Assembly: GCA_012519495.1 (NCBI GenBank)
Contig: JAAYQA010000062.1
Span: 1 to 64,000, forward strand
Origin: Tissierellia bacterium
GTDB taxonomy: Bacteria > Bacillota > Clostridia > Tissierellales > Peptoniphilaceae
Direction of reading: 5' to 3'
DNA: 64,000 nt
Numbering within the stretch: position 1 is the stretch's first letter; each line of letters begins with the position of its first letter. Below the pieces are notes generated by a model, which did not search any database, was not told the DNA's origin, and was given only the letters and a program-made list of their open reading frames with translations. Below are positions 146 through 16,263 of the stretch, piece after piece. Made by a program: the position numbers and the translations under genes.

Positions 146-150
146 CCCAT

Positions 151-250: not shown

Positions 251-254
251 TCTA

Positions 255-283: not shown

Positions 284-325
284 ATATTTAAATATGTTAT
301 AGCGTTTTTAAAAGGGGGTGCTACC

Positions 326-874: not shown

Positions 875-890
875 TATCGGGAGGACGAAA

Positions 891-3260
891 ATGGCATTAA
901 CAGATCGTATCCGAAAGGCGAAGGATGCCTATATTGAGGCAAAACCGGCAATTTCTTATGAGAGAGCCCGCCTTTTCACGGAGAGTCACAAACAAACCGA
1001 GGGTGAGAGCATTCCGATTCGCCGGGCCAAGGCTTTTAAGCACACCTGTGAGAATCTGGTCACGCCGATTTTTGACGGAGAACTGATTGTCGGTGCTACG
1101 GGCGAATTTCGCAAATGCGGCATATTGACACCGGAGTTTTCCTGGACCTGGGTGGATCGGGAGATGGATAATTTCGACAAGCGGGTGCAGGATCCGTATG
1201 AAATGACGGATGAACAGCGCGCCTATGTGCGGGAGCATATCTTCCCGTACTGGGAAGGCAAGTCGCTGGAGGAGGCATTTTTGGCTCGCGTGGATCCGGA
1301 CGTGGCCAAGGTGGCCGTGGATACAGGGATTATCGACAATGATTCCAAATGGCGTCAGGCTGTGGGGGAAATTACGCCGGACTATGCAGGCGCTTTTCGC
1401 AAAGGATTTGGCGGGATTCTTAAAGAAGTAAAGGAAAGAACCGAAGCCTTGTCGCCTTCCAGACAGACAGATCGCAAAAAACGCGAATTCTATGAATCGG
1501 TCCGCCTGACGACAGAGGGCATCATCACGCTGGCAAACCGCTATGCCGATCAGGCAGAGCAAATGGCAGCACAGGAGACGGATACGGAAAGAATAGAAGA
1601 ACTGCTCGAGATTGCAGCGGTTTGTCGTAAAGTACCCGAGCATTCGCCGGAGAGTTTCCGCGAGGCTTTGCAGTTTGTCTGGTTTGTACAACTGGGCGGG
1701 ATTCTGTCCGAGAATCCGCTGGCACTGAATCCGGGGCGTTTTGATCAGTTTATGTTTCCGTATTATGAACGGGATATCGCTTCGGGAAAGGAAACGGATG
1801 CAAGTATTTTAGAGCTGATCGAATGCTATTGGCTGAAGCTTTCGGAATGGGTCTGGACGATTTCTGCCAATACGGCGGAATTTTTTGCCGGATATAATCA
1901 GTTTCAGAATCTGACCGTGGGCGGCAAAAAACGGGACGGTTCGGATGCAACGAATCCGGTTACGCTGCTTGCTTTGCAGGCGACGGCGGAATTGCAGACG
2001 CATCAGCCGGGTCTGTCTGTGCGGCTGCATCAGGACGCGCCGAAGGAGTTTGTGGACGCCGTAACGGATCTGGTCAGTCTGGGAACGGGATTTCCTGCGA
2101 TTCACAATGATCAGGCCGGTTATCAGATGCTGATCAATGCCGGCTATCAGCCGGAGGATGCACGCGACTGGAACAATTGTGGTTGTGTGGTTCCGCATTA
2201 TACGAATACCTTTGAATGGACATCGGCGGTAAATGTCAACTTTACGGCTGCCTTGGAGTATGCGCTGAATCAGGGTGAGAGCCGGCTTACCGGCGAGAAA
2301 ATGGGCCTTTCGGAAAAGGACCCGGCCGGTTTTTCCAGCTATGAAGAGGTGGAAGCTGCGTTTTTCCGCCAGTTTGACCGCCTGATTGCGATCGGGGTGG
2401 AGGTCAGTCTGCTGGCGCAGGAACTGCATACACAAATGGTACCGCGTCCGTTTTTGTCTTCTCTGAACGGGGACTGCCTCCGCGAAGGAAAAGACCTCGT
2501 GGATGGCGGTGCCAAGTATAATCTCGGTCCGGTGCTTACAGGCATCGGGCTGGCGGTAACGGCCAATTCCTTAGAGGCGATCCGCAAGTTGGTGTTTGAG
2601 GAAAAAGTGGTGGATATGCAGACGCTGATCCGCGCTTTGGATGCCGACTGGGAGGGCTATGAGACCTTGCGCGAAGCGTGTATCCATGCACCGAAATACG
2701 GCAACGATATCGAGAGTGTAGACAGCATTGCCAGAAAAATTGCCAATCACTATTATGCCGAAGTCCATTCCTATGACGATTACTACGGGAATCCGTTCAA
2801 TTCCGCTTTCATGGGCATATCCAATTATCTGCCTACGGGCAAGGTGATTGCAGCTACGCCTTGCGGAAGAAAGGCCAAAGAACCGTTGTCGGAAGGGGTA
2901 TCCCCGTTTGCGGGTTCGGATACATCGACGCCTTTGGCGGCGATGCGATCGGCAGCCAAACTGAATCAGGATATGCATTCGGGCGGTACGCTGCTGAATT
3001 TGCGGCTGCAGTCGGATCTGGTAGAAACAAAGCGTGGCCGCAGCAATTTAGGGGCCATGATCCAGGCGTTTTTCTCCCTGGGTGCATTTCATGTGCAGTT
3101 TAATACCCTGTCTACGGAAACCCTTTTGGATGCGCAGGCGCATCCGGAAAACTACCGGGATCTGCTGGTGCGGGTAGCCGGCTACAGCACACAGTTTGTG
3201 AATCTGTCCCGTTCCATGCAGGATGCGATCATTGCACGCAATGCGCATAATACCTTCTGA
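891..3260 (+). CDS. Glycyl radical enzyme of unassigned specificity
   Basis: This 789-residue protein has the length and architecture of the PFL/diol-dehydratase glycyl radical family. The C-terminal radical loop reads RVAGYSTQF with the radical glycine at residue 764. The thiyl-radical cysteine is Cys432 in NNCGCVVP, with a second cysteine at 430. Dehydratases and arylacetate decarboxylases usually carry GCVEP, and PFL carries CCVSP; here the acid-base Glu position is Val, so neither standard class fits. The start at 891 has GGGAGGA upstream. The radical-SAM activase follows one base after the stop. The enzyme would be anaerobic and cytoplasmic. The substrate is not predictable; a link to the neighbouring glutamate pathway is only suggested by position. 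Confidence 0.9.
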   Translation: MALTDRIRKAKDAYIEAKPAISYERARLFTESHKQTEGESIPIRRAKAFKHTCENLVTPIFDGELIVGATGEFRKCGILTPEFSWTWVDREMDNFDKRVQDPYEMTDEQRAYVREHIFPYWEGKSLEEAFLARVDPDVAKVAVDTGIIDNDSKWRQAVGEITPDYAGAFRKGFGGILKEVKERTEALSPSRQTDRKKREFYESVRLTTEGIITLANRYADQAEQMAAQETDTERIEELLEIAAVCRKVPEHSPESFREALQFVWFVQLGGILSENPLALNPGRFDQFMFPYYERDIASGKETDASILELIECYWLKLSEWVWTISANTAEFFAGYNQFQNLTVGGKKRDGSDATNPVTLLALQATAELQTHQPGLSVRLHQDAPKEFVDAVTDLVSLGTGFPAIHNDQAGYQMLINAGYQPEDARDWNNCGCVVPHYTNTFEWTSAVNVNFTAALEYALNQGESRLTGEKMGLSEKDPAGFSSYEEVEAAFFRQFDRLIAIGVEVSLLAQELHTQMVPRPFLSSLNGDCLREGKDLVDGGAKYNLGPVLTGIGLAVTANSLEAIRKLVFEEKVVDMQTLIRALDADWEGYETLREACIHAPKYGNDIESVDSIARKIANHYYAEVHSYDDYYGNPFNSAFMGISNYLPTGKVIAATPCGRKAKEPLSEGVSPFAGSDTSTPLAAMRSAAKLNQDMHSGGTLLNLRLQSDLVETKRGRSNLGAMIQAFFSLGAFHVQFNTLSTETLLDAQAHPENYRDLLVRVAGYSTQFVNLSRSMQDAIIARNAHNTF

Positions 3261-3261
3261 T

Positions 3262-4167
3262 ATGCCGGCCGGGAAAACCGTCGGCTATCTGATCGATGTA
3301 CAGCATTACAGTGTAAACGACGGAGACGGGATTCGCACCACGATCTTTTTTGCCGGCTGCAATATGCGCTGCCAATGGTGTGCGAATCCCGAGAGCTTTA
3401 CAACCTTTGACAAGATTCTGCACACGGAAAGCAGCTGTGTGCGCTGCGGACGGTGTACGCAGGTGTGTCCGTCCGGGGTCGGAATGAATCTGTCGGATCC
3501 TGCAGAACGAAGAAAATGCATCAGCTGCGGGCGCTGCGTCGCGGTTTGCCCGAGCGGCAGCCGCAAGTCGGCCATCCGGACGGTCACGATGCAGGAAATT
3601 GTGGACGAGGTGGAGAAGCACCGCCTGTTCTACCGTTTTTCCGGCGGAGGGATCACTTTTTCCGGTGGAGAAGCCTCCCGCCAGTTTCCGTTTTTGGATG
3701 CATTGTCGGGTGCATTGTACGATGCCGGCCACGATCTTTGTCTGGAAAGCAACGGGCATTTTTCATACGAACAGATGCAGCCGGTACTCAAGCGCCTGGC
3801 ACTGTGCTTTATCGACATCAAACATATGGATCCGCTTGTCCATCGCCGTTTTACCGGCATGGGAAACGAAAAAACGCTGGATACGATCCGGCGTATCGGA
3901 AAAACCGATCTGCCGCTGGTGGTGCGCGTGCCTGTGATTCAGACTGTCAATGCCGAGGATGCGCAGATTCGTGCCATCGCCCGCTTTGTCAAAGAAGCGG
4001 TGCGAACCCCCCGCATCGAACTGTTGCCGTATCACAGTTACGGCGAAGTGAAATATGCTTCTCTCGGTATGCGCCAACCCGACCCGCGCTTTTGTGCACC
4101 GGAAGAAATGCACCGTTTGGAGGAGATTGTGGAAGCGGAGGGTGTCAGAGTCGAACATTTTGCATAG
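3262..4167 (+). CDS. Glycyl-radical-enzyme activating enzyme (radical SAM)
   Basis: About 301 residues. The radical-SAM motif is CNMRCQWC (Cys33, 37, 40), which binds the 4Fe-4S cluster that cleaves S-adenosylmethionine. A two-cluster ferredoxin insert follows: Cys59/62/65/69 and Cys86/89/92/96. The SAM-binding GGE motif is at 134-137. This layout is typical of activases for non-PFL glycyl radical enzymes. The protein installs the glycyl radical on Gly764 of the upstream enzyme. I take ATG 3262, one base past the upstream stop, implying translational coupling; ATG 3241 is an alternative, and neither has a strong ribosome binding site. Confidence 0.92.
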   Translation: MPAGKTVGYLIDVQHYSVNDGDGIRTTIFFAGCNMRCQWCANPESFTTFDKILHTESSCVRCGRCTQVCPSGVGMNLSDPAERRKCISCGRCVAVCPSGSRKSAIRTVTMQEIVDEVEKHRLFYRFSGGGITFSGGEASRQFPFLDALSGALYDAGHDLCLESNGHFSYEQMQPVLKRLALCFIDIKHMDPLVHRRFTGMGNEKTLDTIRRIGKTDLPLVVRVPVIQTVNAEDAQIRAIARFVKEAVRTPRIELLPYHSYGEVKYASLGMRQPDPRFCAPEEMHRLEEIVEAEGVRVEHFA

Positions 4168-4238
4168 AAACATCGGCGCAATAAAACCGACCTTACGCCG
4201 TGTAGAATAAGGAAGTGGATTTTACGGGCATATATCCA

Positions 4239-4264
4239 ACAGGCGCTCTCGGGCGCCTGTTTTA
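4239..4264 (+). terminator. Terminator after the GRE activase
   Basis: An 8-bp stem, ACAGGCGC (4239-4246) with GCGCCTGT (4253-4260), has a 6-base loop and is followed by TTTATT. It separates the GRE transcript from the glutamate mutase transcript. Confidence 0.85.
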
Positions 4265-4281
4265 TTGCCCTTCCGGTTTTG

Positions 4282-4310
4282 TTTACATATAGGTGAACAA
4301 TTTGTATAAT
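4282..4310 (+). promoter_or_regulatory. Promoter of the methylaspartate operon
   Basis: TTTACA (4282-4287) and TATAAT (4305-4310) have a 17-base spacer, close to the sigma-A consensus. The leader to glmS is about 100 bases; I saw no cobalamin riboswitch in it. Confidence 0.8.
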
Positions 4311-4418
4311 GGTTGTGTAAAGGATTGCGAAAGCTTGACCTAATAACTGGTGGTTGCGAATGTATCGGGGAAGGGCTGGGTTATTACCTATCCAATAAAG
4401 ATGCACGAGGGAGGCAGC

Positions 4419-4835
4419 ATGGACAAACAGCAGGTAGTCATGGGAGTAATCGGGGCCGATGTGCACGCAGTCGGCATACGTATCCTTGATTACGCATACA
4501 CGGAGGCAGGGTTCTCCGTGCACAATTTAGGCGTGATGGTGAGCCAGGAAGAGTTTATTCAAGCGGCGGTGGAAACCGACGCTGTTTGTATTTTGGTCAG
4601 TTCATTGTATGGACACGGAGAACTGGACTGCCGTGGCCTGCGGGACAAATGCAGGGAAGCGGGGATCGGTGACATACTCCTGTATGTCGGAGGCAATATT
4701 GTCGTTGGCAAGCAACCGTTTGAGGAAGTAGAAAAACGATTTCTCGCCATGGGTTTCAATCGGGTGTTTCCGCCGGGTTCCACGCCGGAGGAAGGCATTG
4801 AAACCCTGAAGAAGGATCTGCAGATTTCGTCATGA
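4419..4835 (+). CDS. glmS: Glutamate (methylaspartate) mutase, small B12-binding subunit S
   Basis: This 138-residue protein has a B12-binding Rossmann fold. The DxHxxG motif is Asp14-Val-His16-Ala-Val-Gly19, with His16 at the position of the axial cobalt ligand in clostridial glutamate mutase. The downstream SSLYGHG and YVGGN segments match the cobalamin-tail pocket. With subunit E it rearranges L-glutamate to (2S,3S)-3-methylaspartate, the first step of the methylaspartate fermentation. ATG 4419 is preferred over ATG 4401 because GAGGGAGG precedes it. Its last four bases overlap glmL (ATGA). This symbol is also used for an unrelated glucosamine synthase. Confidence 0.96.
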
Positions 4836-6217
4836 CGCATCCGGTTCTGCTTATTGATTTCGGCAGTACGTATACGAAAATCACCGCGGTGGATACCGAT
4901 AGCGGCACGCTTTTGCAGACGGCGCAAAGCTTTACAACGGTAGAAACCGATATACGGGACGGATTGCAAAATGCACTGCAGAAAGCGGATGTAACGCTGG
5001 AGGACTTTGCTGCGGTATATGCCTGTTCGAGTGCGGCGGGCGGGCTGAGGATGGCGGTCAGCGGTTTGATGCCGGATCTGACATCCAAAGCGGCGCGCAT
5101 GGCGGCTTTGGGAGCCGGAGCGAAGGTGGTGCGCAGTTTCAGCCACGAACTGACGCAAGACGATCAGGAAGAGATCCGGGCGATTGCTCCGGATATTCTG
5201 CTTTTGTGCGGTGGAACCGACGGCGGCAACCGGACTTGTATTGAACACAATGCCCGCGTACTGGCAGATCTGGATCCGGCATTTCCCATCATTTTTGCGG
5301 GGAACCGTTCGGCAAAGGATACCTGCCGGACGATTCTAAAAGACCGGAATGTATATTATTGCGATAATGTGCTGCCTGCGCTGGATACGATCCGCGTGGA
5401 AGAAGTACAGCAGATTATTCGCGCGATCTTTCAGAAGAATATTGTACGCGGCAAGGGACTTTCGCAGGTAAATGAGATTCTGGACCGGATCGCCATGCCG
5501 ACACCGGGTGCGGTGCACCGGGCACTGGAGTTGCTTTCCGGTGGGACGAAGAATACAAAAGGCTGGGGCGAGCTGCTCGGAGTGGATCTGGGTGGGGCGA
5601 CAACGGATGTGTATTCCATGGCGGCAGGCGATCCGCAAATGGCCAATGTTACCTTAAAGGGTTTGCCGGAGCCGTTTTCCAAACGTACCGTGGAGGGCGA
5701 TATCGGGATGCGATACAGCCTTTTGGGCGTGGTGGAAGAGTCCGGCTACGAGCGTCTGGCAGAAATCAGCGGTCTGCCCTCTGCACAGCTTCCTGCGATG
5801 CTGGCGTCGCTGGATACGGAGAAGGCGTATTTGCCTTCGGACACGGCGTTTGCTGCTCTGGATGCAGCGGTTGCATCGGAGGCCTTGCGCATTGCGATCA
5901 GTCGGCATACGGGCCGTCTGGAAGAGTTTTATACGCCGATGGGCCGGCAGTATCTGCAGACCGGCAAGGATTTGCGCACGGTGAATACGCTGATTGCCAC
6001 CGGCGGTGCTTTGCTGCATGCAAAGGATCTGCCTGCGATTGTATCGCGCGCACTGTATACCGAGTCGGATCCGTCGCTGTTGTTACCTGAAACGATGGAA
6101 ATCTGGCTGGACCGAAACTATATTTTATCGGCTATGGGCGTTTTGTCGGAGCATGATCCCGATGCAGCGCTAGCAATTTTAACAAAGGAGCTTGTACATG
6201 TCCGAAATGAGCAATAG
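4832..6217 (+). CDS. glmL: Glutamate mutase accessory protein L (reactivase-like ATPase)
   Basis: 461 residues. The N-terminus, [15 protein letters not shown], is the phosphate-1 motif of the actin/Hsp70 ATPase fold, and [15 protein letters not shown] near the middle supplies the second nucleotide-binding segment. GlmL/MutL proteins lie between the S and E subunit genes in methylaspartate operons and are thought to protect or reactivate the B12 enzyme. The gene is coupled to glmS by a 4-base overlap and overlaps glmE by 20 bases. The family assignment is firm; the reactivation role is family knowledge. Confidence 0.94.
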
Positions 6218-7646
6218 ATTACAAAACGACGAATTTTTCCGATTGCGCGAAGAAGTCCTTACGCAGTGGCCGACCGGCGCCGATGTCGACTTTGACGAAG
6301 CGGTGGCGTTTCACAAGGCCTTGCCGGAGAACAAGCTGTTTTCGCTGCAGATGCAAAAAGCGGAGGAGGAAGGCCGTACGCTGATTCAGCCGCGGGCCGG
6401 TGTTCCGCTGGTGCGCGATCATATTGAACTTTTAACGTATCTGCAAAATGAAGGCGGAGCCGATTTGCTCCCGACGACCATCGACTCGTATACGAGACAA
6501 AACCGCTACAAGGAAGCGGAAATCGGGATCGAGGAATCGGTGCGCGAAAACAAGTCGATGCTCAACGGCTTTCCGGCGGTCAACCACGGCGTGGGCGCCT
6601 GCCGGCAGATCATTCAAAGCCTGGACCGTCCGGTACAGGTGCGCCATGGGACGCCGGAGTCGCGTTTGTTGGCGGAAATTACATTGGCCGGCGGTTTTAC
6701 CAGTTTTGAGGGCGGCGGGATTTCGTATAATATTCCGTATTCCAAAAATGTGTCGCTGGAAAAAACGATCACCGACTGGATGTATGTGGACCGGCTGGTG
6801 GGCCTGTATGAGGAAAAGGGCGTCTCTATCAACCGGGAACCGTTTGGTCCGTTGACAGGGACGCTGGTGCCGCCGTTTGTGTCGCATTGCGTTGCGATTA
6901 TTGAAGCGCTTTTAGCGGCCGAACAGGGGGTAAAGAATATTACCGTAGGCTATGGCCAGTGCGGCAATCTGATTCAGGATGTGGCCGCGATCCAGACGCT
7001 GAAATCGCTAACCGAAGAGTATCTGCACAAATTCGGTTTCTATGATGTGAATGTGACAACGGTCCTGCATCAGTGGATGGGCGGCTTCCCGCAGGATGAG
7101 GCGCAGGCATTTGCCGTTATCTCCTGGGGGTCGGCAGTGGCGGCCTTGTCCAAGGTGACAAAAGTAATTGTCAAAACCCCGCATGAGGCGATGGGTGTGC
7201 CGACACGACAGGCCAATGCACAGGGATTACTGTGCACCAAGCAGATGATCAATATGCTGCATGACCAGACATTGAACACGTTCTCTCTGAAGGATGAAAA
7301 AGTAATTATTGCATCGGAAACCCGGGCGGTGCTGGCACGCGTGCTCGAACTGGGCGAGGGCGATATTGCTTCCGGGGCGATCCGTGCTTTTGAAGCGGGC
7401 GTTTTGGATATCCCGTTTGCACCCAGCCGCTACAATGCCGGCAAATTGCTGCCTGCACGCGACAACGACGGCGCGATCCGCGTGTTCCATCCGGGCAATG
7501 TGCCTTTTACACCGGAACTGCGCGAATTCCACAATGAGAAGATACAGGAGCGGGCAGCCTTCGAAAACCGGAAACCTTCGTTCCAGATGGTGACCGATGA
7601 TGTGTATGCGATCAGCAAAGGACGTCTGGTTGGCCGGCCGAAATAA
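6198..7646 (+). CDS. glmE: Glutamate (methylaspartate) mutase, catalytic subunit E
   Basis: 482 residues, the usual length for the catalytic TIM-barrel subunit. It dimerises and binds two S subunits with adenosylcobalamin between them. Recognisable family segments include the substrate-site region around [19 protein letters not shown] and the stretch from [12 protein letters not shown] onward. ATG 6198 is chosen: AAAGGAG lies 8 bases upstream, within the end of glmL. The product, 3-methylaspartate, is the substrate of the next gene's enzyme. Confidence 0.96.
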
Positions 7647-7666
7647 ACCATCCTAAGGAGTGGGAC

Positions 7667-8908
7667 ATGAAGATAGAAAAAATTGTTTTGTCACAGGGAC
7701 GAACCGGGTTCTTTTTTGACGATCAGAAGGCGATTCGACTGGGCGCAAAAGCGGACGGAGCGGCCTATACGGGAGAACCTGCGCTTCCCGGTTTTACGGG
7801 TGTGCGACAGGCAGGGGAGTCGATTTCTGTGCAAATGGTATTGGAAGACGGGCAGATTGCACACGGCGATTGTGCGGCTGTGCAGTATTCCGGTGCGAGC
7901 GGCCGGGATCCCTTGTTTTTGGCGGAAGATTTTATCCCGGTTATAGAAGAACATGTGGTACCGGTTTTTGAACAGACGGAGATCACGGAATTTCGTGCGA
8001 TGGCAGATAAGCTGGATGCGATCCGCGTAGACGGAAAACCTCTGCATACAGCCATCAGTTACGGCGTCAGCCAGGCGCTTTTGGATGCGGTGGCCAAAAA
8101 GAACAAAAAAATGGTGTGCGAAGTGATTGCAGACGAATATGGGACCGACGTTTCCGCCACACCCATACCGGTTTTCAGCCAGACCGGCGACGACCGCTAT
8201 ATCAACGCGGATAAAATGATCCTCAAGCGCGTCGATGTCTTGCCGCATGCACTGATCAATCATGTGGAAACGAAGCTGGGTTTGCACGGTGAGAAGCTGT
8301 TGGATTATGTGAAATGGCTGTCTGAACGGATAGCGCTTTTGTCCGGTGAGGATACGTATCGTCCGGTGATTCATCTGGATGTATACGGAACGATCGGGCA
8401 GGTGTTCGGCGAACGTGAATACGAAAAAATGGCCGACTATCTGGCGGCTCTTTCAGAAGCGGCAAAACCCTACGCGCTGCGGATCGAAGGCCCGATGGAT
8501 GCGGGGGGACGCGAAGCACAGATCGAATGCATGGCGGGCTTGCGCCGCTGTCTGGATGAACGGGGGATTCCTGTCGAGATTGTCGCCGATGAATGGTGTA
8601 ATAATGTCGATGATATCCGTGCATTTGCCGATGCAAAGGCAGGGCATATGTTACAGATCAAAACTCCTGACTTAGGCGGCGTGCAGCATATTGCCGAGTC
8701 GGTTTTGTATTGCAAAGAAAAAGGGATCGGCGCGTATCAGGGCGGAACCTGCAACGAAACCGACCGTTCGACCCAGATCTGCATACAGATTGCCATGGCG
8801 GTTCAGCCCGATCAGGTGCTGGCAAAACCGGGCATGGGGGTCGATGAAGGCTTTATGATCGTGTATAACGAAATGCAGCGAATACTGGCATTGCGAAAGG
8901 TAAGATAA
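7667..8908 (+). CDS. mal: Methylaspartate ammonia-lyase
   Basis: 413 residues, enolase superfamily. It removes ammonia from 3-methylaspartate to give mesaconate. The catalytic lysine is in QIKTPDLGG and the partner histidine in INHVETK. The three magnesium carboxylates are in HLDVYG, RIEGPMD and VADEWC, in the expected order along the barrel. It starts 20 bases after glmE with TAAGGAGTGG ahead of ATG 7667. It is the second step of the glutamate pathway. No anomaly seen. Confidence 0.96.
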   Translation: MKIEKIVLSQGRTGFFFDDQKAIRLGAKADGAAYTGEPALPGFTGVRQAGESISVQMVLEDGQIAHGDCAAVQYSGASGRDPLFLAEDFIPVIEEHVVPVFEQTEITEFRAMADKLDAIRVDGKPLHTAISYGVSQALLDAVAKKNKKMVCEVIADEYGTDVSATPIPVFSQTGDDRYINADKMILKRVDVLPHALINHVETKLGLHGEKLLDYVKWLSERIALLSGEDTYRPVIHLDVYGTIGQVFGEREYEKMADYLAALSEAAKPYALRIEGPMDAGGREAQIECMAGLRRCLDERGIPVEIVADEWCNNVDDIRAFADAKAGHMLQIKTPDLGGVQHIAESVLYCKEKGIGAYQGGTCNETDRSTQICIQIAMAVQPDQVLAKPGMGVDEGFMIVYNEMQRILALRKVR

Positions 8909-8909
8909 T

Positions 8910-9851
8910 ATGAGTTATTCGGATCGAATGCAAAGAAATCATCTGGTCAGTATTTATCTGGCTCCGCGCGGATATCCGCGCATGGCGGATCAGGGCGAGC
9001 AGATCGGCCAGCTGTATTTAAGCCCGTTCGATCTTCTGATCGGCGTGATCGGGGATGCCGGCAGCGGCAAGAGCATGCTGATCAAGGGGATGTTTCCCGG
9101 TCTTGAACTGACAAACGATGACGAGGGGCTGAATGTGCGGCCCCTGCCGATTATGAGTGTGGAAGACGATGCGTTTTATTCGGCGCGCACCTATCATATC
9201 GACATGAATTTCGAGAGTGCGTTTTATCAGATGCATGATATCGTCGCTGCGATTCAGCGCGCCCTGGAGCTGAAAAAGCGGGTCGTGATCGAACATTTTG
9301 ACATGGTGTATCCGGCGTTGAAAAAGAATGCGGATCTGCTGATCGGGATCGGGGAGGAGATTATTATCACCCGGCCCACGGTATTCGGTCCGGAGCCGGA
9401 AGAGATCAAGCAAGTGGTGTTTCATTCGATCAAATACCGGAAGATGGCGCATACGGCAGAAGAACTGTTTCTTATTTCCCTGGAAAAACAGGGGTTTTAC
9501 GAGTACCGGCATTCGGAAGTGCGCCACGGTTTTCTGATTCTGTTTGATTCCAAGCCGGACATCGATATGGAACTCTTGCAAAAGGATGTGCAGGCGCTGA
9601 TCGATGCAAAGTTGCCGGTTACCTACAAGGACGACAATCATATCTATGTGGGAGATCGGGTGCGGGCGTGCCAGGGGCCACGGATGCATCTGAACAATAC
9701 CGGCGATATCCACGAATTTACACTGTATCCGGAGCTGACGCACGATCCTTTCACCAAGCGCTATATGCTTCTGGCGATTGTCGGTTCTGAAGAGATTGCA
9801 AGCATCAGCGTAGTCAATACGATTTTTGATCAGTACGGGGTGCGAAGATAA
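8910..9851 (+). CDS. P-loop protein with alanyl-tRNA-synthetase-like C-terminal region
   Basis: 313 residues. A Walker A motif, GDAGSGKS (48-55), follows a hydrophobic beta strand. EHFD at about 130 could act as Walker B. The C-terminal third (HIYVGDRVRACQGPR and onward) resembles the second additional domain of alanyl-tRNA synthetase, a name databases attach to proteins in methylaspartate operons. It begins one base after mal and overlaps the fumarase alpha gene by one base, so it is locked into the pathway. The function is unknown. A cofactor or metal-cluster maturation, or enzyme-assembly NTPase role, is an inference. Confidence 0.85.
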   Translation: MSYSDRMQRNHLVSIYLAPRGYPRMADQGEQIGQLYLSPFDLLIGVIGDAGSGKSMLIKGMFPGLELTNDDEGLNVRPLPIMSVEDDAFYSARTYHIDMNFESAFYQMHDIVAAIQRALELKKRVVIEHFDMVYPALKKNADLLIGIGEEIIITRPTVFGPEPEEIKQVVFHSIKYRKMAHTAEELFLISLEKQGFYEYRHSEVRHGFLILFDSKPDIDMELLQKDVQALIDAKLPVTYKDDNHIYVGDRVRACQGPRMHLNNTGDIHEFTLYPELTHDPFTKRYMLLAIVGSEEIASISVVNTIFDQYGVRR

Positions 9852-10696
9852 TGCGTAAGATACAGGTGCAGGCGATTGAAGAAGCGGTATACGAATTGTT
9901 TCTCCAAGCCAATTATTCGATCGAGCCGGGCATAGAAAAAGCGATTACCGAAGCGGTCGAACAGGAAACCTCCGATGCAGGGCGTTTTGTTTTAAAGCAG
10001 CTCAGCGAAAATTACCGGATTGCGCGCACGGAAAAAATGGCGATTTGCCAGGACACCGGTGCATCGATGGTATTTATGGATATCGGGCAGGAAGTGTATT
10101 TGGAGGGCGAATTGCCGGAAACCGCCGTAAACCGCGGCGTGAGACGGGCCTATACCGAAGGCTTTCTCCGAAAGTCCATGGTGAAGGATCCGTTGTTTGA
10201 CCGCACCAATACGGGCGATAACACACCGGCCATACTGTATACCCGCATTGTGGAGGGCGATCGTATTTCCCTGTCGGTGGCTGCAAAGGGGTTTGGCTGT
10301 GAGAATATGAGCCGAACGAAGATGCTTGTCCCGGGAGACGGCATAGACGGTGTGAAGGATTTCATACTTGAAACCATACGGATCGCGGGGCCTAATACCT
10401 GCCCGCCGTCTTTGGTGGGAGTGGGAATCGGCGGTACGATCGACTACGCAGCGATGCTGTCCAAACGTGCGTTGCTGCGGCCGGTCGGGGACACCCATCC
10501 GGATGCACGCTACGCGCAATTGGAACAGGAGCTCCTGGAGAAGGCAAATCAGCTGGGGATCGGGCCGGGCGGCTATGGAGGAAAGATGACGGCCCTGGCG
10601 GTAAAAATCGAATCCTATCCTACGCATATCGCGTCGATCCCGGTATGTGTGACGATGTGCTGCCATGCGTCACGGCATGCATCAAGGGTATTGTGA
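9851..10696 (+). CDS. Class I fumarase/mesaconase, alpha subunit
   Basis: 281 residues, N-terminal 4Fe-4S half of a class I hydro-lyase. The cluster cysteines are visible in CQDTG, GFGCEN and NTCPP. In this operon the heterodimer most likely hydrates mesaconate to (S)-citramalate, following methylaspartate ammonia-lyase; fumarase or tartrate dehydratase activity is also possible for the family. It overlaps the preceding stop by one base. The oxygen-labile cluster fits an anaerobe. Confidence 0.93.
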   Translation: MRKIQVQAIEEAVYELFLQANYSIEPGIEKAITEAVEQETSDAGRFVLKQLSENYRIARTEKMAICQDTGASMVFMDIGQEVYLEGELPETAVNRGVRRAYTEGFLRKSMVKDPLFDRTNTGDNTPAILYTRIVEGDRISLSVAAKGFGCENMSRTKMLVPGDGIDGVKDFILETIRIAGPNTCPPSLVGVGIGGTIDYAAMLSKRALLRPVGDTHPDARYAQLEQELLEKANQLGIGPGGYGGKMTALAVKIESYPTHIASIPVCVTMCCHASRHASRVL

Positions 10697-10701
10697 GGCG
10701 T

Positions 10702-11280
10702 ATGATGAAAGAAAAAAGACTGCAACTGCCTCTGGGCAACGAAGCGATTGAACAGCTGCGCGCCGGCGATTTTGTGCTGCTTTCCGGTATACTCTACACC
10801 GGACGCGACGCGGCGCATATCCGCATGCGCGATGCCATTGAAAAGGGAGAACCTCTGCCGGTGGATCTGACCGGCCAGGTGATTTACTATGTGGGGCCGG
10901 CTCCCGCCCGGCCCGGACAGGCTGTCGGCTCCGCCGGACCTACCTCCGCTTACCGGATGGACGGCATTGCGCCGCTGCTTCTGGACCGGGGACTCAAAGG
11001 GATGATCGGAAAAGGGCTGCGCGGTGCAGCCGTGATTGAGTCGATGAAAAAGAACCGCGCGGTGTATTTTACGGCCGTGGGGGGTGCGGCGGCACTGATT
11101 TCCAAGTCGATTGTATCCAGTGAGGTGGTTGCCTACGAGGACTTAGGTCCGGAGGCCATACACCGCTACGAAATACAGGATTTCCCCGTTTTCGTCACAA
11201 TCGATGCCAACGGCAACAATTTGTACGAAACAGGCCCCGCAGGCGCCTGCGGCGCAATGAAATCGGCCTACGGCCGGTGA
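10702..11280 (+). CDS. Class I fumarase/mesaconase, beta subunit
   Basis: 192 residues, C-terminal half of the split class I hydro-lyase. Typical segments are YYVGPAPARPGQ, GPTSAYRMD and KGLRG. Together with the alpha subunit it forms the mesaconase and closes the operon at citramalate. I take ATG 10702 (MMKEKRL); ATG 10705 is equally possible. No gene for a citramalate lyase follows: the next 200 bases are a long inverted repeat and a dispersed repeat copy. Confidence 0.93.
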   Translation: MMKEKRLQLPLGNEAIEQLRAGDFVLLSGILYTGRDAAHIRMRDAIEKGEPLPVDLTGQVIYYVGPAPARPGQAVGSAGPTSAYRMDGIAPLLLDRGLKGMIGKGLRGAAVIESMKKNRAVYFTAVGGAAALISKSIVSSEVVAYEDLGPEAIHRYEIQDFPVFVTIDANGNNLYETGPAGACGAMKSAYGR

Positions 11281-11281
11281 A

Positions 11282-11351
11282 ATCCAGCACGCAAACGATG
11301 TTGTTACTGTCAATCGAAGGAAACAACGCTTGAATCGTTTGCGTGCTGGAT
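11282..11351. repeat. Long nested inverted repeat at operon end
   Basis: Arms of 18 bases, 11282-11299 and 11334-11351, are perfect reverse complements. Inside them GTTGTT (11300-11305) pairs with AACAAC (11322-11327). The structure begins two bases after the fumarase beta stop and has no T-run, so it is not a standard terminator. It may act as a 3' mRNA stabiliser or a factor-dependent terminator, or be a mobile palindrome. Confidence 0.8.
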
Positions 11352-11481
11352 GAAATATCATCGCGTGTCGCTTCGCTCACGCTCGTTATGAAATACACGG
11401 CCTTCGCCGCGTGTGAAGCGGAAGGATGGATATTGTAGTGGCCGCATTCCATATCGGCCACGGGCCAAACGTCTGCCTATG
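11352..11481 (+). repeat. Dispersed hairpin repeat, copy B
   Basis: TGAAATA modules with short palindromes (11352-11410) lead into the core GAAGCGGAAGGATGGATATTG segment and then the hairpin GTGGCCG (11438-11444) / CGGCCAC (11455-11461). The loop is 10 bases ending in TTCCATAT, followed by GGCCAAACGTC. It lies between the plus-strand mesaconase operon and the minus-strand DUF1294 gene. Confidence 0.8.
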
Positions 11482-11498
11482 GATTATGATCCGACGTT

Positions 11499-11765
11499 TT
11501 ATGGTATAAAGCCCTTGTGCCGCAGGTAGAAGAGCAGGGCGATTTGGGCTGCGGCGAGCAGGGGGATCAGTAGGAAAAATTTGGGCTTTTTCGTTTTATG
11601 CCGGAATAAAAGCATGGCAAGATAGGCGCCGGGTGCGCCGAAGGCAGCCGCTGAAAGAAGCAGGATGCGTTCGGGTATGCGGCGTTTTTGTTTTTTGGAT
11701 CGGTATTTGTCGATTCCGAACAGGAAAAGAACCCACAGATTGTAAAAAATGATAAGATAAGGCAT
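11499..11765 (-). CDS. DUF1294 small membrane protein
   Basis: 88 residues with two to three hydrophobic segments and the family motif FGIDKYRSKK ... FGAPGAYLAMLLFRHKTKK. DUF1294 members are small inner-membrane proteins of unknown function. The start is the ATG complementary to 11763-11765, preceded by AAGGAG on the minus strand (11771-11778); longer readings of the frame run into the MFS gene region and lack support. It diverges from the MFS gene across about 66 bases that must hold both promoters. Confidence 0.88.
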   Translation of the reverse strand: MPYLIIFYNLWVLFLFGIDKYRSKKQKRRIPERILLLSAAAFGAPGAYLAMLLFRHKTKKPKFFLLIPLLAAAQIALLFYLRHKGFIP

Positions 11766-11831
11766 GCAAAACTCCTTTCGTACGCGAGAGAAAGTTACGC
11801 TATTATTGTACAACAAAGGTGGGTATTGGGG

Positions 11832-13058
11832 ATGCGGACTTTTTTTGGAAAACACTATGGCTGGGCGATCGTGGCGGCTTCTTTTGTGTATTTGTCGTTC
11901 ACATGGGGGATTGTATTCAACACAAACAGCCTGTTTTTGGTGCCGATTGAACAGTCTCTGGCTATCGGGCGGGCGCAGACAATGGTGGCTATCACGCTGC
12001 GCGGTGTCGCAATGGTGATCGGGGCATTTGTTTCCGGGTATCTGTATGACCGCTACGCGTTTATGCGGATTTTCCGGCTGTCGTCGATGCTGTTGGTCAT
12101 TACGTATGCTCTGATTGCCGCCGTTCGCACGCCGATGCAGTATTATATTCTTTCCACCTTGCATATTATGTTTATGGGGATTGCAGGTTTCATTCCGGTT
12201 ACCATGATGGTCAACCGCTGGTTCGCGGCAAAGACTGGTACCGCAATGGGTTTTGCTTTGCTGGGATCCGCCATCGGCGGAATGCTTTTGAGTCCGGTGG
12301 CAGGCTGGCTGATTCCTGTATGGGGCTGGCGGATGGTAAATCTTCTTTTTGCGCTGGCGATGTTTCTTGTGGTAGGGATATGCACATTTTTTGTGTTTGC
12401 AAAGGAGCCGGCTGATTTTGGTTTAACCCCATACGGGACAGCAAACGATGGCACAGATTCCTTTACCGACGTGATCCGTCCGGATCCGCAACCCTTGGGT
12501 CGGCTCGTTTTTGTTCTGATCATTATAGGCATTGTGCTGATGAATGCAAGCCTGACGCTTCTTATGACCAATACCTCTCCGCATTTGCAGGCGGAGGGAT
12601 TCAGCTTGGAAAAAACGTCTCTTGTGATGTCGATCATTATGTTTTCGATGGGGTTCGGAAAAATTGCGCTCGGCGTTTTGTACGATGCCGTCGGCATGCG
12701 ATTGGCAACTTTGATAACCGCTGCGGCTTTTCTTTTCGGTTACGGCGGATTACTGTATCCGCATTTGCCGTTTGCCATCTGGCTTTCCGCATTGGGCACG
12801 GGTTTTGGCTCTACCTTTAACTCCCTGGCTCCGCCGATTTTTGCCCGCGCACTGTACGGAGTCGGGCAGTTTACGCGGATCAATGCGTTTTTTCAGGCGG
12901 TGGGAGGGGTCGGGTCGGTGTTGGCGCCGGTCGTTGTGGGCGCTTTGTATGACCGGCACGGCGACTATACAGCCATCTTTCGCCTGTTCTTATTTTCCAT
13001 TGCCGTTACGATGCTTATCTGGGTTTTTGCGTTACCCGGTAAAGCAAAAGATGCTTAA
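11832..13058 (+). CDS. MFS transporter
   Basis: 408 residues with about 12 hydrophobic segments. The first-loop signature YDRYAFMR and the second-half YDAVGMRLATLI fit the major facilitator family, perhaps the OxlT/monocarboxylate branch. Solute unknown; a carboxylate linked to the nearby fermentation operon is possible but unproven. ATG 11832 has AAAGGTGG upstream. A single gene with its own upstream region, transcribed away from DUF1294. Confidence 0.9.
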   Translation: MRTFFGKHYGWAIVAASFVYLSFTWGIVFNTNSLFLVPIEQSLAIGRAQTMVAITLRGVAMVIGAFVSGYLYDRYAFMRIFRLSSMLLVITYALIAAVRTPMQYYILSTLHIMFMGIAGFIPVTMMVNRWFAAKTGTAMGFALLGSAIGGMLLSPVAGWLIPVWGWRMVNLLFALAMFLVVGICTFFVFAKEPADFGLTPYGTANDGTDSFTDVIRPDPQPLGRLVFVLIIIGIVLMNASLTLLMTNTSPHLQAEGFSLEKTSLVMSIIMFSMGFGKIALGVLYDAVGMRLATLITAAAFLFGYGGLLYPHLPFAIWLSALGTGFGSTFNSLAPPIFARALYGVGQFTRINAFFQAVGGVGSVLAPVVVGALYDRHGDYTAIFRLFLFSIAVTMLIWVFALPGKAKDA

Positions 13059-13107
13059 AATGTACAGGGATAAAGAAATTTTATCTCGTACTGATAATTA
13101 TTAACCA

Positions 13108-13136
13108 TTGAAGTATATGTGTTTTTATGGTATGTT
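13108..13136 (+). promoter_or_regulatory. Promoter of the small lipoprotein gene
   Basis: TTGAAG (13108-13113) and TATGTT (13131-13136) have a 17-base spacer, about 28 bases upstream of the start codon. Confidence 0.55.
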
Positions 13137-13164
13137 TAAACAAATACTAAGAAAGGAGCTTGTT

Positions 13165-13572
13165 ATGAAAAAATTTGCTTTCATTGCGGTATTGCTCTTG
13201 TTTATTGTTCTGCTTGCGGCGTGCGGGGGAGGCGATCCGGATGCGGTACAGCAGGCGAATGAGAATTATGATCCCGGCCAGGCGCGACTGGACGAAGGAA
13301 ATGTACAGGCGATTATGGACAAAACGAAAGAGGAATTCAGCAGAAATGACGTGAACTTCTTTACGTATCGCTTCAAAGACGGGAACCTTCGCATGAATGC
13401 ACGGCTGTTAAATGAAGAGATTGAAGAAGAATTCATTCAAACTTTTGCCGATGCGTTTCGTAATTCGCAGGCGGAAACACTGGAGATCGAGCTGAAAGAT
13501 CACGGCACCTACAATATTCCGCTGGCAGAAGAAACCGACGACTATTCGCAGTATTTTACACCCGCTGAATAA
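13165..13572 (+). CDS. Small secreted lipoprotein, function unknown
   Basis: 135 residues. A signal peptide (MKKFAFIAVLLLFIVLL) ends at lipobox LLAAC, with Cys at about 20, so the product should be lipidated and anchored outside the membrane. The mature part is acidic and rich in Glu, Asp, Asn and Gln. No family was recognised. GAAAGGAG precedes the ATG and a strong terminator follows the stop, so it is a monocistronic unit. Lgt (56197) would lipidate it. Confidence 0.85.
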   Translation: MKKFAFIAVLLLFIVLLAACGGGDPDAVQQANENYDPGQARLDEGNVQAIMDKTKEEFSRNDVNFFTYRFKDGNLRMNARLLNEEIEEEFIQTFADAFRNSQAETLEIELKDHGTYNIPLAEETDDYSQYFTPAE

Positions 13573-13580
13573 AACCATTA

Positions 13581-13610
13581 AGCGCATGAATCACTTAATG
13601 CGCTTTTTTT
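13581..13610 (+). terminator. Terminator after the lipoprotein gene
   Basis: AGCGCAT (13581-13587) pairs with ATGCGCT (13598-13604); a run of seven T follows. Confidence 0.88.
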
Positions 13611-13619
13611 GTGCCTACG

Positions 13620-13782
13620 AGGGAGGCGCCTAAGGCGCAATGAAATACCTCGCACGCGCGGCGCTTTGCGCGTCCGGCTTGTGCTCGGTGCAATATACGC
13701 GGTGTGCCCCGCGTGTTCAGGGGTAGGATTGATATTGTAGTGGCCGTATTCCATATCGGCCACGCGCCAAACGTCCGCTGAA
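13620..13782 (+). repeat. Dispersed hairpin repeat, copy C
   Basis: A GGCGCCTAAGGCGCAATGAAATA block (13626-13649), inverted relative to the one near 226-247, opens the region. A CGCGG/CCGCG hairpin (about 13698-13714) precedes the core hairpin GTGGCCG (13740-13746) / CGGCCAC (13757-13763), with loop TATTCCATAT and then GCGCCAAACGTCCG. After the repeat, 13783-13914 holds an imperfect AGGGGGT/ACCCCCT pairing and no gene. Confidence 0.8.
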
Positions 13783-13914
13783 CGACGCATAGGGGGTCGA
13801 AATACCATAGCTCCACGCAGCGGTGATTTAAAGATCGCCGAGCGAACCGAACCCCCTGTCCAATGGTTGGATTGTGTTACAAAATGCACAGCGATGCGCT
13901 TTTTTTGTGTGCTT

Positions 13915-13923
13915 TGTTATAAT
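13915..13923 (+). promoter_or_regulatory. Extended -10 element upstream of galU
   Basis: TGT directly precedes TATAAT (13918-13923), an extended -10. No convincing -35 is visible. The galU start is 28 bases downstream. Confidence 0.5.
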
Positions 13924-13950
13924 GGAACTAAGATGGCAAAGGAGATGAAT

Positions 13951-14823
13951 ATGAGAGTACGTAAAGCGGTGATCCCCGCCGCCGGTCTGGGGACGCGTTT
14001 TTTACCGGCTACGAAAGCGCAGCCGAAGGAGATGTTGCCGATTGTAGATAAGCCGACTTTGCAATATATTGTGGAAGAAGCGGTGGCATCGGGGATTGAA
14101 GAAATTCTTTTGATAACCGGGCGCGGCAAGGCATCTATTGAGAATCATTTTGACAAGTCTGTGGAACTGGAGATGGTGCTGGAGCAAAGCGGAAAGACAG
14201 AGCTGTTGGAACTGGTGCGAAAGGTCTCCGATATGGCCGATATCCACTATATACGGCAGAAGGAACAAAAGGGTTTGGGACATGCGGTATACTGTGCCAA
14301 GCATTTTGTCGGCAATGAACCTTTTGCGGTGCTTCTGGGGGATGATGTTGTATACAGTAAAACCGAACCGGCTCTGGCGCAGCTGATGCATGTTTATGAG
14401 AAAAAGCAGTGCAGTGTGCTGGGTGTTCAGGAAGTACCGGAAGAGCAGGTAAACAAATACGGCATTCTGAAAGGGATCCCGCAGGAGGACGGCACGGTTT
14501 TAGTAGAGGATTTGATTGAAAAACCCCGTCTTGCCGATGCGCCCTCGCGAACCGCGGTGTTGGGTCGCTATGTACTGACGCCTTCGATTATCGATGTGCT
14601 GGAGGAGACAAAACCCGGTGTCGGAAATGAAATCCAGCTGACGGATGCGATACTGACTTTAGCGAAGCGGGAAGCGGTTTATGCGAAGGCCTATGAAGGA
14701 CGACGCTATGACGTGGGTTCAAAAATGGGATTTTTGGAGGCAACGGTGGAGTACGCGTTGCGCGACCCGGCCTTATCTGCGGATTTCCGGGCGTATCTGC
14801 GCCGGATGTGCGCCGGGCAGTGA
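13951..14823 (+). CDS. galU: UTP-glucose-1-phosphate uridylyltransferase
   Basis: 290 residues, the normal GalU length. The nucleotide-binding signature is PAAGLGTRFLPATKAQPKEM; other conserved stretches are PFAVLLGDD and LIEKP. It makes UDP-glucose from UTP and glucose-1-phosphate for wall polymers or glycolipids. ATG 13951 has GCAAAGGAG at proper spacing; the ATG at 13945 is too close. rbgA follows after 10 bases, so the two are probably cotranscribed. Confidence 0.96.
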   Translation: MRVRKAVIPAAGLGTRFLPATKAQPKEMLPIVDKPTLQYIVEEAVASGIEEILLITGRGKASIENHFDKSVELEMVLEQSGKTELLELVRKVSDMADIHYIRQKEQKGLGHAVYCAKHFVGNEPFAVLLGDDVVYSKTEPALAQLMHVYEKKQCSVLGVQEVPEEQVNKYGILKGIPQEDGTVLVEDLIEKPRLADAPSRTAVLGRYVLTPSIIDVLEETKPGVGNEIQLTDAILTLAKREAVYAKAYEGRRYDVGSKMGFLEATVEYALRDPALSADFRAYLRRMCAGQ

Positions 14824-14833
14824 GAGGACGAAG

Positions 14834-15670
14834 ATGAATATTAACTGGTATCCGGGGCATATGAAAAAGACCCGCGAGATGATCCTGCAGGAACTGAAGC
14901 TCGTGGATCTGGTGTATGAAATGGTGGACGCGCGGATTCCTGTAAGCAGCCGAAACCCGGATATCGATGAACTGATCGGGGAGAAACCGCGCATACTTTT
15001 ACTGAACAAGGCGGATCTGGCAGATGCGGGGGGAACGAAGGAGTGGATGCGTTATTTTTCGGAGCGCAAGATCCCCTGTGTTGCGATTGATACACCCCGC
15101 AGAAAGGGCTTTTCCACTTTGTTTTCGTTGACGGAAGAGGCAATGCAGGCGAAAAAGGCGCGCGATGCAGGCCGCGGGATTAAAAATACGCGCACGCGCG
15201 TGATGGTGGCAGGGATCCCCAATGTGGGAAAGAGCAGTCTGATTAATCGGATTGCGGAAAAAAAGAGCGCCAAGACCGGCAATAAGCCGGGTGTCACAAA
15301 AAGCAAGCAGTGGATCCGTGCACAAAACCATATGGAACTGCTGGATACGCCGGGGGTTTTATGGCCGAAACTGGGCGAGGAGAAAACGGCTTTGCATCTT
15401 GCTTTTACCGGTGCAATCACCGACCGTATCCTGGATGAGGAAACGCTCGGGTACCGGCTTTTGGAGCTGGGAACCAGGCGGCGTTTTGCGGGAATGATCG
15501 ATCGGTACGGGGCACCGGAGGAGGACACGCTGGCCTATATGGAAAAAATCGGACGCGCGCGCGGCTATTTGCTGCGGGGCGGTTTGATTGATTACGAAAA
15601 AACCGGACAATTGCTTCTGGATGAATTTCGAGGAGGTCTATGGGGCGGCATTACGCTCGAGACGCCATGA
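14834..15670 (+). CDS. rbgA: Ribosome biogenesis GTPase (YlqF/RbgA family)
   Basis: 278 residues, a circularly permuted GTPase: the G4 motif NKAD (about 57-60) precedes the Walker A GIPNVGKSS (about 122-130), and G3 is DTPG. The N-terminus INWYPGHMKK is diagnostic. It acts in late 50S subunit assembly. The end of the gene overlaps rnhB by 31 bases, with the rnhB ribosome binding site inside it; the rbgA-rnhB pairing is common in Firmicutes. Confidence 0.95.
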   Translation: MNINWYPGHMKKTREMILQELKLVDLVYEMVDARIPVSSRNPDIDELIGEKPRILLLNKADLADAGGTKEWMRYFSERKIPCVAIDTPRRKGFSTLFSLTEEAMQAKKARDAGRGIKNTRTRVMVAGIPNVGKSSLINRIAEKKSAKTGNKPGVTKSKQWIRAQNHMELLDTPGVLWPKLGEEKTALHLAFTGAITDRILDEETLGYRLLELGTRRRFAGMIDRYGAPEEDTLAYMEKIGRARGYLLRGGLIDYEKTGQLLLDEFRGGLWGGITLETP

Positions 15671-16263
15671 AATGGGATGTGTCACTGGAATATAAATACG
15701 GAAAACTGATCGGCATAGATGAAGTCGGAAGGGGCTGTCTGGCCGGGCCGGTGGTGTCGTGTGCGGTGGTGATGCCAAGCAACAGTTTTATTCAGGGCGT
15801 GAGGGACTCCAAACGCCTCAGCTCGAAAAAAAGAGAGCAGCTTTCCCGCCTGATCCGGCTGACTGCGATCGGGATCGGTTACGGAATCGCGGAACCGGAA
15901 GAAATCGATCGAATCGGTATCCGGCCGGCGGTGCAGCTAACGATGCGGCGTGCGGTGGAGTCTTTGGTCGAAAGCTGCCGTATGCCTTGTCATATTGCGT
16001 GCGATTACGAGACCGTCCCTTTACCGATTCCGCAGACGGCGGTCATTCACGGGGATGATACGATGTATCCGATTGCCTGTGCTTCCATTCTGGCCAAGGT
16101 TTACAGAGACCGGATGGCCGCTGCCTGGGATGCACAGTATCCCGGTTATGCACTGGGACAGAACAAGGGTTACGGGACCGCGCAGCACCGGGCAGGGATC
16201 GACCGGCTGGGTCTCACACCGCTGCATCGACGCAGCTTTTGTAAAGCATGGAGCTTCGAATGA
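15640..16263 (+). CDS. rnhB: Ribonuclease HII
   Basis: 207 residues. The active-site segment IGIDEVGRGCLAGPV carries the catalytic Asp-Glu pair, and the third carboxylate is in HIACDYE; SILAKVYRD is the conserved substrate-contact stretch. It cuts RNA in RNA-DNA hybrids and misincorporated ribonucleotides. The start at 15640 follows AGGAGG closely; ATG 15667 is less likely. Its stop overlaps the next start (ATGA). Confidence 0.95.
   Translation: MGRHYARDAMKWDVSLEYKYGKLIGIDEVGRGCLAGPVVSCAVVMPSNSFIQGVRDSKRLSSKKREQLSRLIRLTAIGIGYGIAEPEEIDRIGIRPAVQLTMRRAVESLVESCRMPCHIACDYETVPLPIPQTAVIHGDDTMYPIACASILAKVYRDRMAAAWDAQYPGYALGQNKGYGTAQHRAGIDRLGLTPLHRRSFCKAWSFE

Follow-up and report, generated by a model that had tools for sequence, protein, structure and literature searches.

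The stretch of DNA analysed here (the window) comprises 64,000 nucleotides of a contig from a Tissierellia bacterium (JAAYQA010000062.1) and carries an operon for the methylaspartate route of glutamate fermentation on its forward strand. The operon contains glmS, encoding the B12 subunit of glutamate mutase (4425..4832; NF002612, 218.8 bits against a cut-off of 110), glmL, encoding the mutase accessory protein (4832..6217; NF040745, 573 bits, cut-off 475), glmE, encoding the mutase E subunit (6192..7646; TIGR01503, 770 bits, cut-off 390), mal, encoding methylaspartate ammonia-lyase (7667..8908; TIGR01502, 594 bits, cut-off 286), and the genes for class I fumarase alpha (9851..10696; NF004885, 376 bits, cut-off 276) and beta (10645..11280; NF005310, 273 bits, cut-off 238), which are putative mesaconase subunits. 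Between mal and the mesaconase alpha gene, on the same strand, lies an open reading frame for a protein of 313 amino acids (8910..9851, from ATG to TAA) without a database family, which we describe below as a TsaE-like ATPase with a SAD domain. The stop codon of mal occupies 8906-8908, so that the single base 8909 separates the two genes, and the last base of the TAA of the open reading frame (9849-9851) is also the first base of the mesaconase alpha start codon (9851). The spacing given in the earlier note, one base from mal and a one-base overlap with the mesaconase alpha gene, is borne out by these coordinates.

The glm genes are preceded by an HTH regulator gene (149-871), and a glycyl radical enzyme and its activase (822-3257 and 3223-4164) stand at the head of the glm operon. 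The closest solved relative of the glycyl radical enzyme is choline TMA-lyase. In the GCVEP motif the Glu is catalytic; here the motif reads GCVVP, and the reaction is therefore probably different from that of choline TMA-lyase, as judged from the sequence. Downstream of the mesaconase genes, the window encodes an MFS transporter (11281-13055) where a sister metagenome-assembled genome (L034, 1-9356) has citC, citX, citD, citE, and citF directly after the mesaconase genes. The citF of the window's own genome was located at the end of another contig (C86). No Rfam element reached the gathering score in positions 1-20000 of the window.

Homologues of the 313-aa protein are 42-79% identical to it and lie in gene neighbourhoods of the same kind, and the gene is under purifying selection, with a dN/dS of about 0.07 (from two pairs with a computable dS; several dS gave no number); hence the gene is real and chance is excluded. 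None of the phage records of the collection encodes the protein at E 0.001. The gene is also present in Prevotella nigrescens and Peptoclostridium acidaminophilum, where it is annotated as a hypothetical protein. Outside the sampled phylum, Spirochaetota and Bacteroidota have loci with the gene (L033, L060, and L073).

When the 313-aa protein alone was compared with Pfam and NCBIfam, no family was found at E <= 0.01. Pfam TsaE was not matched even at E <= 10, and the NCBIfam model T6A_YjeE was matched at E 0.1 with 12.5 bits, below the cut-off of 60.1. Among 77 homologues, Pfam TsaE (PF02367) matched 25 at E <= 0.01 (best 3.4e-5), and Pfam tRNA_SAD likewise matched 25 (best 3.4e-5). Sequence searches of the PDB with the protein or with the 77-row profile gave mainly P-loop noise and were set aside. 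An AlphaFold2 model built with the 77 homologues had a pLDDT of 90.9 and a pTM of 0.88, and its two domains were compared with known structures using VIA-align. For residues 11-161 (8940..9392, forward strand), the scores were Z 10.4 for B. subtilis YdiB (5np9; rmsd 3.5, 128 aligned residues), Z 10.2 for HI0065 (1htw), and Z 10.2 for T. maritima TsaE (6n9a), while ABC and clamp-loader (RFC) structures reached Z 7.5 or less, below all three TsaE structures, which indicates a TsaE fold. For residues 174-292 (9429..9785, forward strand), AlaX, AlaRS, and ThrRS chains gave Z 11.4-13.6 with rmsd 2.5-4.7, indicating a SAD fold of the AlaX/AlaRS/ThrRS editing type; the same region was also matched by the designed scaffold 3rhu (Z 13.7) and by mitoribosome chains (Z 8.8-10.5).

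Profile-profile comparison (hhalign) matched the C-terminal domain to the AlaRS SAD with a probability of 96.7 and to the ThrRS SAD with 97.3, and the P-loop domain to TsaE with 94.7 over 106 columns. On the whole P-loop domain, an ABC-transporter profile outscored TsaE (96.6, over 61 columns around the P-loop only, versus 94.7), as it did in a second comparison (86.3 versus 71.0). Beyond the P-loop all profile signals were weak (TsaE E 0.029; ClpX 0.063 over 11 columns; ABC 0.2), and the TsaE assignment therefore rests mainly on the fold and on three aligned motifs. As modelled, the protein is thus a TsaE-type P-loop ATPase domain joined to a SAD editing-type domain. The earlier note had described a Walker A motif coupled to a C-terminal region resembling the SAD of alanyl-tRNA synthetase, and the structure model and profile matches agree with this; its generic P-loop part is now narrowed to a TsaE-like domain by the fold comparison.

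To count conserved residues, we aligned the window protein with 76 of 78 non-redundant rows, drawn from 146 of 154 loci that passed a length filter; the L125 fusion and L162, the disrupted copy of genome G167, were left out. The eight loci failing the filter were L113, L122, L142, L161, L163, L164, L165, and L166, among which L142 (genome G341) is open over a 300-aa frame and was counted as full-length. In the Walker A motif GDAGSGKS (residues 48-55; 9051..9074), G48, G51, G53, K54, and S55 are invariant in all 77 rows; the loss of Walker residues in most orthologues, which the earlier note had named as an argument against its own proposal, is not what the family shows. Two further motifs, also read from the forward strand, are the YHID of residues 95-98 (9192..9203), the counterpart of the TsaE YH-x-D, with Y95, H96, and D98 in 77/77, and E128-H129 (9291..9296), the counterpart of E108-W109, both in 77/77. 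In the alignment with TsaE, K54/S55 correspond to the Walker Lys-Thr, D98 to the Asp of H-x-D, and E128/H129 to E108/W109. Lys54 and Glu128, which align with catalytic residues of TsaE, are invariant, with Ser replacing the Walker Thr and His129 replacing the Trp. In the table of E. coli YjeE mutants in PMC4330362, as far as its entries go, ADP binding is disabled in T43A and ATP binding in E108A, and T43A, E108A, and W109A are entered as 'lost' in the adjacent column, cited here without its head.

The protein therefore shares with TsaE (YjeE/YdiB, of the t6A TsaBDE complex) the fold of residues 11-161 and the aligned Walker A Lys-Thr/Ser, YH-x-D, and I/V-E Mg-binding glutamate, all invariant in the 313-aa family. 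Unlike TsaE, apart from the Ser and His129, it has extra invariant residues (N69, D71, R77-P78-x-P80, and G160-P161) and is fused to a SAD domain. A genuine TsaE is encoded elsewhere in the same genome (G000:C82, E 4.9e-36), which makes it unlikely that the 313-aa protein works with TsaB and TsaD on tRNA A37.

In the SAD domain, the forward-strand motif H-T-A-E-E (residues 181-185; 9450..9464) is the counterpart of H-x3-H, with the second His replaced by Asp/Glu: H181 and E184 are found in 77/77, and position 185 is D in 73, E in 3, and N in 1 of 77. The counterpart of C-x3-H is C-x5-H (residues 254-260; 9669..9689, forward strand), with a two-residue insertion near the invariant R258; C254, P257, and R258 are found in 77/77 and H260 in 76/77. 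The four metal-site positions (H181, 185, C254, and H260) thus form H-x3-D/E ... C-x5-H in place of the canonical H-x3-H ... C-x3-H, with Asp/Glu at the second and the insertion before the fourth. R155 and R177 are likewise invariant (77/77). With AlaX and the SAD of AlaRS/ThrRS (PF07973), the domain shares the fold, the H...C...H motif, and the TGEI...F signature. It differs from all of them in the second metal ligand and in the longer spacing with an invariant Arg, has a shorter stretch before the Cys than AlaRS/ThrRS, and is joined to an ATPase, not to a synthetase. Judging by these residues, the SAD pocket is conserved but is not an AlaX pocket. Three other SAD-bearing frames (881, 671, and 388 aa) were found in the window's own genome.

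The distribution of the gene was assessed in 398 genomes drawn evenly from the phylum, in which the 313-aa protein had 75 initial matches. Removing G165 and G433 (P-loop noise) and G105 (a broken copy) left 72 clear matches, 68 of them full-length and open. Four copies were incomplete or disrupted. That of G270 is cut by the contig end, that of G167 is disrupted from about residue 107 onwards, and that of G228 has a stop codon in frame near residue 20. The copy in G190 (L163, 9726-10181) is 165 aa long and comprises just the TsaE-like domain, in which one glycine of Walker A is changed; it lies near RNase PH, two genes from a partly degenerate GlmE-like gene. Among close relatives of the window genome, only 2 of 101, the genome itself included, carry the gene, and the operon is therefore patchy and was probably gained by transfer. 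In G216 (L115) and G419 (L118), two tandem copies lie upstream of RNase PH. At L125 (290-1567), the protein shares an open frame with part of DUF4387, which may be a fusion or an assembly error; with only about 60 DUF4387 residues in a genome that is 63% complete, it was dropped as evidence.

As 323 of the 398 genomes had no match, the gene is not a general housekeeping gene, and the same figure speaks against a small-molecule kinase or transferase unrelated to GlmE and inherited with the locus. Such an enzyme could account for the P-loop with the further invariant residues N69, D71, R77, D98, E128, R155, and R177, for a weak match to a uridine kinase model (E 0.079), for a phosphoribulokinase/uridine kinase chain at E 0.48, which is also at Foldseek rank 35, and for the very slow evolution of the gene even where its GlmE-like neighbour drifts. 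Nucleoside kinases with TGS/SAD domains also carry a P-loop and a SAD domain in one chain, with the domain order reversed relative to the 313-aa protein, which, unlike them, has no kinase family match at E <= 0.01. The fold, however, is closest to TsaE, an ATPase, among the structures compared, a comparison that leaves space for kinases absent from the set, and we consider a kinase or transferase highly improbable.

Gene neighbourhoods were examined at 71 loci of the phylum sample and at the 80 nearest loci, which came from contigs of named genomes of Clostridia, Treponema, other spirochaetes, and Leptolinea. At least one pathway gene was found in the stretch fetched at 65/71 and 72/80 loci, respectively. 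The gene therefore belongs to the methylaspartate neighbourhood, as the earlier note had proposed, and a family mostly outside methylaspartate operons, which would have spoken against that proposal, is not seen. Gene calling recovered the gene in 137 of 156 loci, among which there was no single operon order, the gene adjoining mal, DUF4387, fum, cit, or glmE. AtuA (DUF1446)/DUF4387 was found at 66 and CitDEF at 24 of 151 loci (L034-L187), and both together at none; the two thus exclude each other beside the gene. AtuA/DUF4387 may take the place of citramalate lyase in the pathway. An AtuA search of the window's own genome gave no match, nor did its control.

RNase PH was the next gene in 49 of the 137 called loci, and membership of an rph-rdgB housekeeping block was considered and dropped: at the other 88 loci RNase PH was not the next gene on the same strand, and L189 and L191-L193 have rph-rdgB and a GlmE-like gene without the 313-aa gene. 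Four sample loci (L115, L117, L147, and L180), where the gene stands by RNase PH and no pathway gene lies in the stretch fetched, keep such membership from being fully excluded. The order at L189, L191, and L193 (genome family f65) is murI, glmE-like, hgdB-like, hgdC-like, rph, rdgB, without GlmS, Mal, or the 313-aa gene, and the mapped GlmE active-site residues are largely kept there.

A GlmE homologue was present in 86 of the 398 genomes and in 71 of the 72 with a clear match (67 of the 68 full-length), a co-occurrence with a Fisher p of 3.7e-58 (calculated from the uncleaned 75/86/398 table). The exception was G358, a 63% complete genome in which the gene sits on a short contig next to pieces of AtuA/DUF4387. 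In 67 of the 72 genomes the gene was on the same contig as the GlmE homologue, in 66 of these 67 within 20 kb (median 4.7 kb), demonstrating its linkage to the pathway. When protein distances were compared given RNase PH at 21 loci, the partial correlation was 0.44 with GlmE (permutation p 0.001), 0.10 with Mal (p 0.15), and -0.03 with GlmL (p 0.61); that with FumA was 0.01 over 17 loci. The regression weights on 73 loci were 0.58 for GlmE, 0.34 for GlmL, and -0.09 for Mal. Correlations of this kind can also arise from similar rates of evolution.

The gene was absent from 15 of the 86 GlmE genomes, ten of which have GlmS, GlmL, GlmE, and Mal. A profile search of these ten did not find the 313-aa gene, and nine of them are at least 92% complete (G382, 61%). 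The gene is therefore not universally required for the pathway; it is not essential, and glutamate mutase can work without it. Nor can it be a maturation step needed wherever the route operates.

The presence of Mal and GlmS was checked in 80 of 87 genomes of interest. Mal was missing from 11 of the 64 tested genomes with a clear match: nine that have the gene at full length, G190, where it is truncated, and G358, which is incomplete. All but G358 had only weak B12-domain matches in place of a true GlmS. A diverged GlmE-like protein (31-40% identity) was the partner in six genomes of f49 and in one each of f33 and f93, and Pfam MutE recognised the three f49 copies scanned at E 2.2e-62 or lower. 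For the active site we used residue numbers and roles that we take to be those of the structure literature, mapped via alignment, leaving out the truncated GlmE-like copy of L121. All five alignable f49 copies had lost the mapped arginines except the first, together with the adenosyl-contact residues; the f33 copy had lost most of the site and the f93 copy part of it, while three f60 copies kept most. Most mapped catalytic residues are thus gone from the GlmE-like neighbour in at least six of the nine genomes with a full-length gene but no Mal or true GlmS. In four f49 pairs, the 313-aa gene was 74-88% identical and its GlmE-like neighbour 59-67%. At L133, L141, L142, L145, and L154 (f49) and L160 (f33), the GlmE-like protein is solo, with an open frame, no GlmS, GlmL, or Mal nearby, and most mapped mutase active-site residues lost.

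As the gene stays full-length beside a GlmE-like neighbour without Mal or a true GlmS, mesaconase and citramalate lyase are not its constant partner; GlmE, or a protein resembling it, is. The earlier note's interpretation is thus supported in part, namely as far as the tie to the pathway neighbourhood goes. GlmL, an ASKHA protein, was considered on account of TsaE acting on an ASKHA protein, and was dropped as an obligate partner: no member of the GlmL family scores above the cut-off in G132, in G174, or in six of the f49 genomes, and GlmL is an additional partner at most.

These results also bear on whether the protein matures a downstream enzyme or loads its cofactor, which would be the [4Fe-4S] cluster of mesaconase or the prosthetic group of citramalate lyase. 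The position of the window gene between mal and fumA would suit such a role, as would the fumA (19) and citX-like (13) genes downstream among the 137 called loci and the order citC, gene, citX in Peptoclostridium acidaminophilum. Service to citramalate lyase, which that order had suggested, was dropped, as CitDEF is found in the stretch fetched at 0 of 71 phylum-sample loci. FumA is absent from the stretch fetched at 50 of the 71, f49 loci have neither cit genes nor fumA, and the distance data point to GlmE and not to FumA. Maturation of either enzyme is accordingly very doubtful in our estimate.

The reading we tentatively favour, while holding it at somewhat less than an even chance, is that of a TsaE-like switch ATPase dedicated to GlmE, whose editing domain would have been repurposed. 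In its ATP state, the TsaE-like domain would dock on GlmE in the way that TsaE does on TsaD-TsaB, and would be released by hydrolysis. According to the passages of PMC4330362 and PMC9654439 used here, TsaE binds TsaD-TsaB in the ATP-bound form, and in PMC9654439 it leaves after hydrolysis. The SAD pocket, instead of editing tRNA, would bind a small molecule, which may be an acidic amino acid held by the invariant Arg258, and this ligand would gate the ATPase cycle; the likely output would be assembly, reactivation, or ligand-dependent regulation of GlmE. A link to GlmE is supported by the G190 copy, which is cut to the TsaE-like domain and is still near a GlmE-like gene, but the loss of a Walker A glycine from that copy counts against it. 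The high conservation of the gene in f49, where the GlmE-like neighbour is degenerate, weighs against a GlmE chaperone; degenerate partners argue against pure reactivation and leave room for regulation or a tRNA-side function. MeaB and MMAA, chaperones of B12 mutases without a SAD domain, may serve as a functional analogy only, that of a P-loop switch serving an adenosylcobalamin-dependent mutase; unlike their case, the B12 subunit GlmS is not a constant partner of the 313-aa protein. MMAA is described as a G-protein (PMC10356863), unlike the 313-aa protein.

Another reading is a ligand-sensing regulator, in which the SAD pocket would sense glutamate or a pathway acid and the state of the ATPase would set pathway expression or activity. 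Amino acids are ligands of SAD editing domains (L-serine in AlaX, by the title of 1wnu), R258, H181, and E184 are invariant, and a GntR-like gene, the GlmE-like gene, and the 313-aa gene stand in a row at four f49 loci (L133, L141, L142, and L154). However, no DNA-binding domain was recognised in the 313-aa protein, and regulators are already at hand, with a GntR-like gene at 22 of the 80 nearest loci and the HTH gene at 149-871 in the window. We regard such a sensor as decidedly unlikely.

A tRNA-side function would take the form of ATP-gated trans-editing or tRNA quality control: an acidic non-protein amino acid wrongly attached to tRNA, such as 3-methylaspartate, would be removed by the SAD domain, with the binding or release of tRNA under the control of the TsaE-like ATPase. 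Each domain has relatives that act on tRNA (the editing domains of AlaX, AlaRS, and ThrRS for one, TsaE of the t6A complex for the other), the metal site keeps three of its four positions, with Asp at the remaining one in 73/77, and the frequent next gene, RNase PH, encodes a tRNA 3'-end enzyme. Methylaspartate, an isomer of glutamate, is the product of glutamate mutase and is made by the mutase of the same operon. An editing factor against methylaspartate would therefore fit the operon, but not the genomes unable to make it by this route: the gene is retained at full length in the nine genomes that have neither Mal nor a true GlmS, and those of them in the alignment show the same invariant residues, so methylaspartate cannot be a general substrate. 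The Asp in H-x3-D, the insertion in C-x3-H, and the missing stretch of the AlaRS/ThrRS SAD also count against editing, as does the rph-rdgB order found without the gene, and we know of no trans-editing factor that uses ATP. On balance trans-editing appears unlikely. Its boldest form, an ATP-gated machine whose TsaE-type switch controls an AlaX-type hydrolase clearing wrongly charged acidic amino acids from tRNA, is in our judgement quite improbable; the substrate would be 3-methylaspartate where glutamate mutase works, with the hydrolase encoded in the operon that makes it. Were it true, it would to our knowledge be without precedent, both as an editing factor linked to a fermentation operon and as one driven by ATP.

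Both folds were already known, and no description of the family or of the TsaE-like and SAD combination was found in the literature or family libraries searched. PMC4682846 maps these clusters and labels neighbouring genes, and the 313-aa protein is not described in the sections of its text consulted, figures aside. Glutamate fermentation by the methylaspartate route is textbook knowledge, yet part of the route may be missing from current schemes: a conserved, family-less protein accompanies a homologue of its first enzyme in nearly all gene-bearing genomes of the phylum sample (71/72). This protein joins two folds with separate tRNA-linked careers and is retained even where the adjacent mutase-like protein appears to have a degenerate active site. 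It could be a new chaperone or switch serving a B12 mutase, or else a new factor in tRNA editing, and both possibilities can be put to concrete tests.
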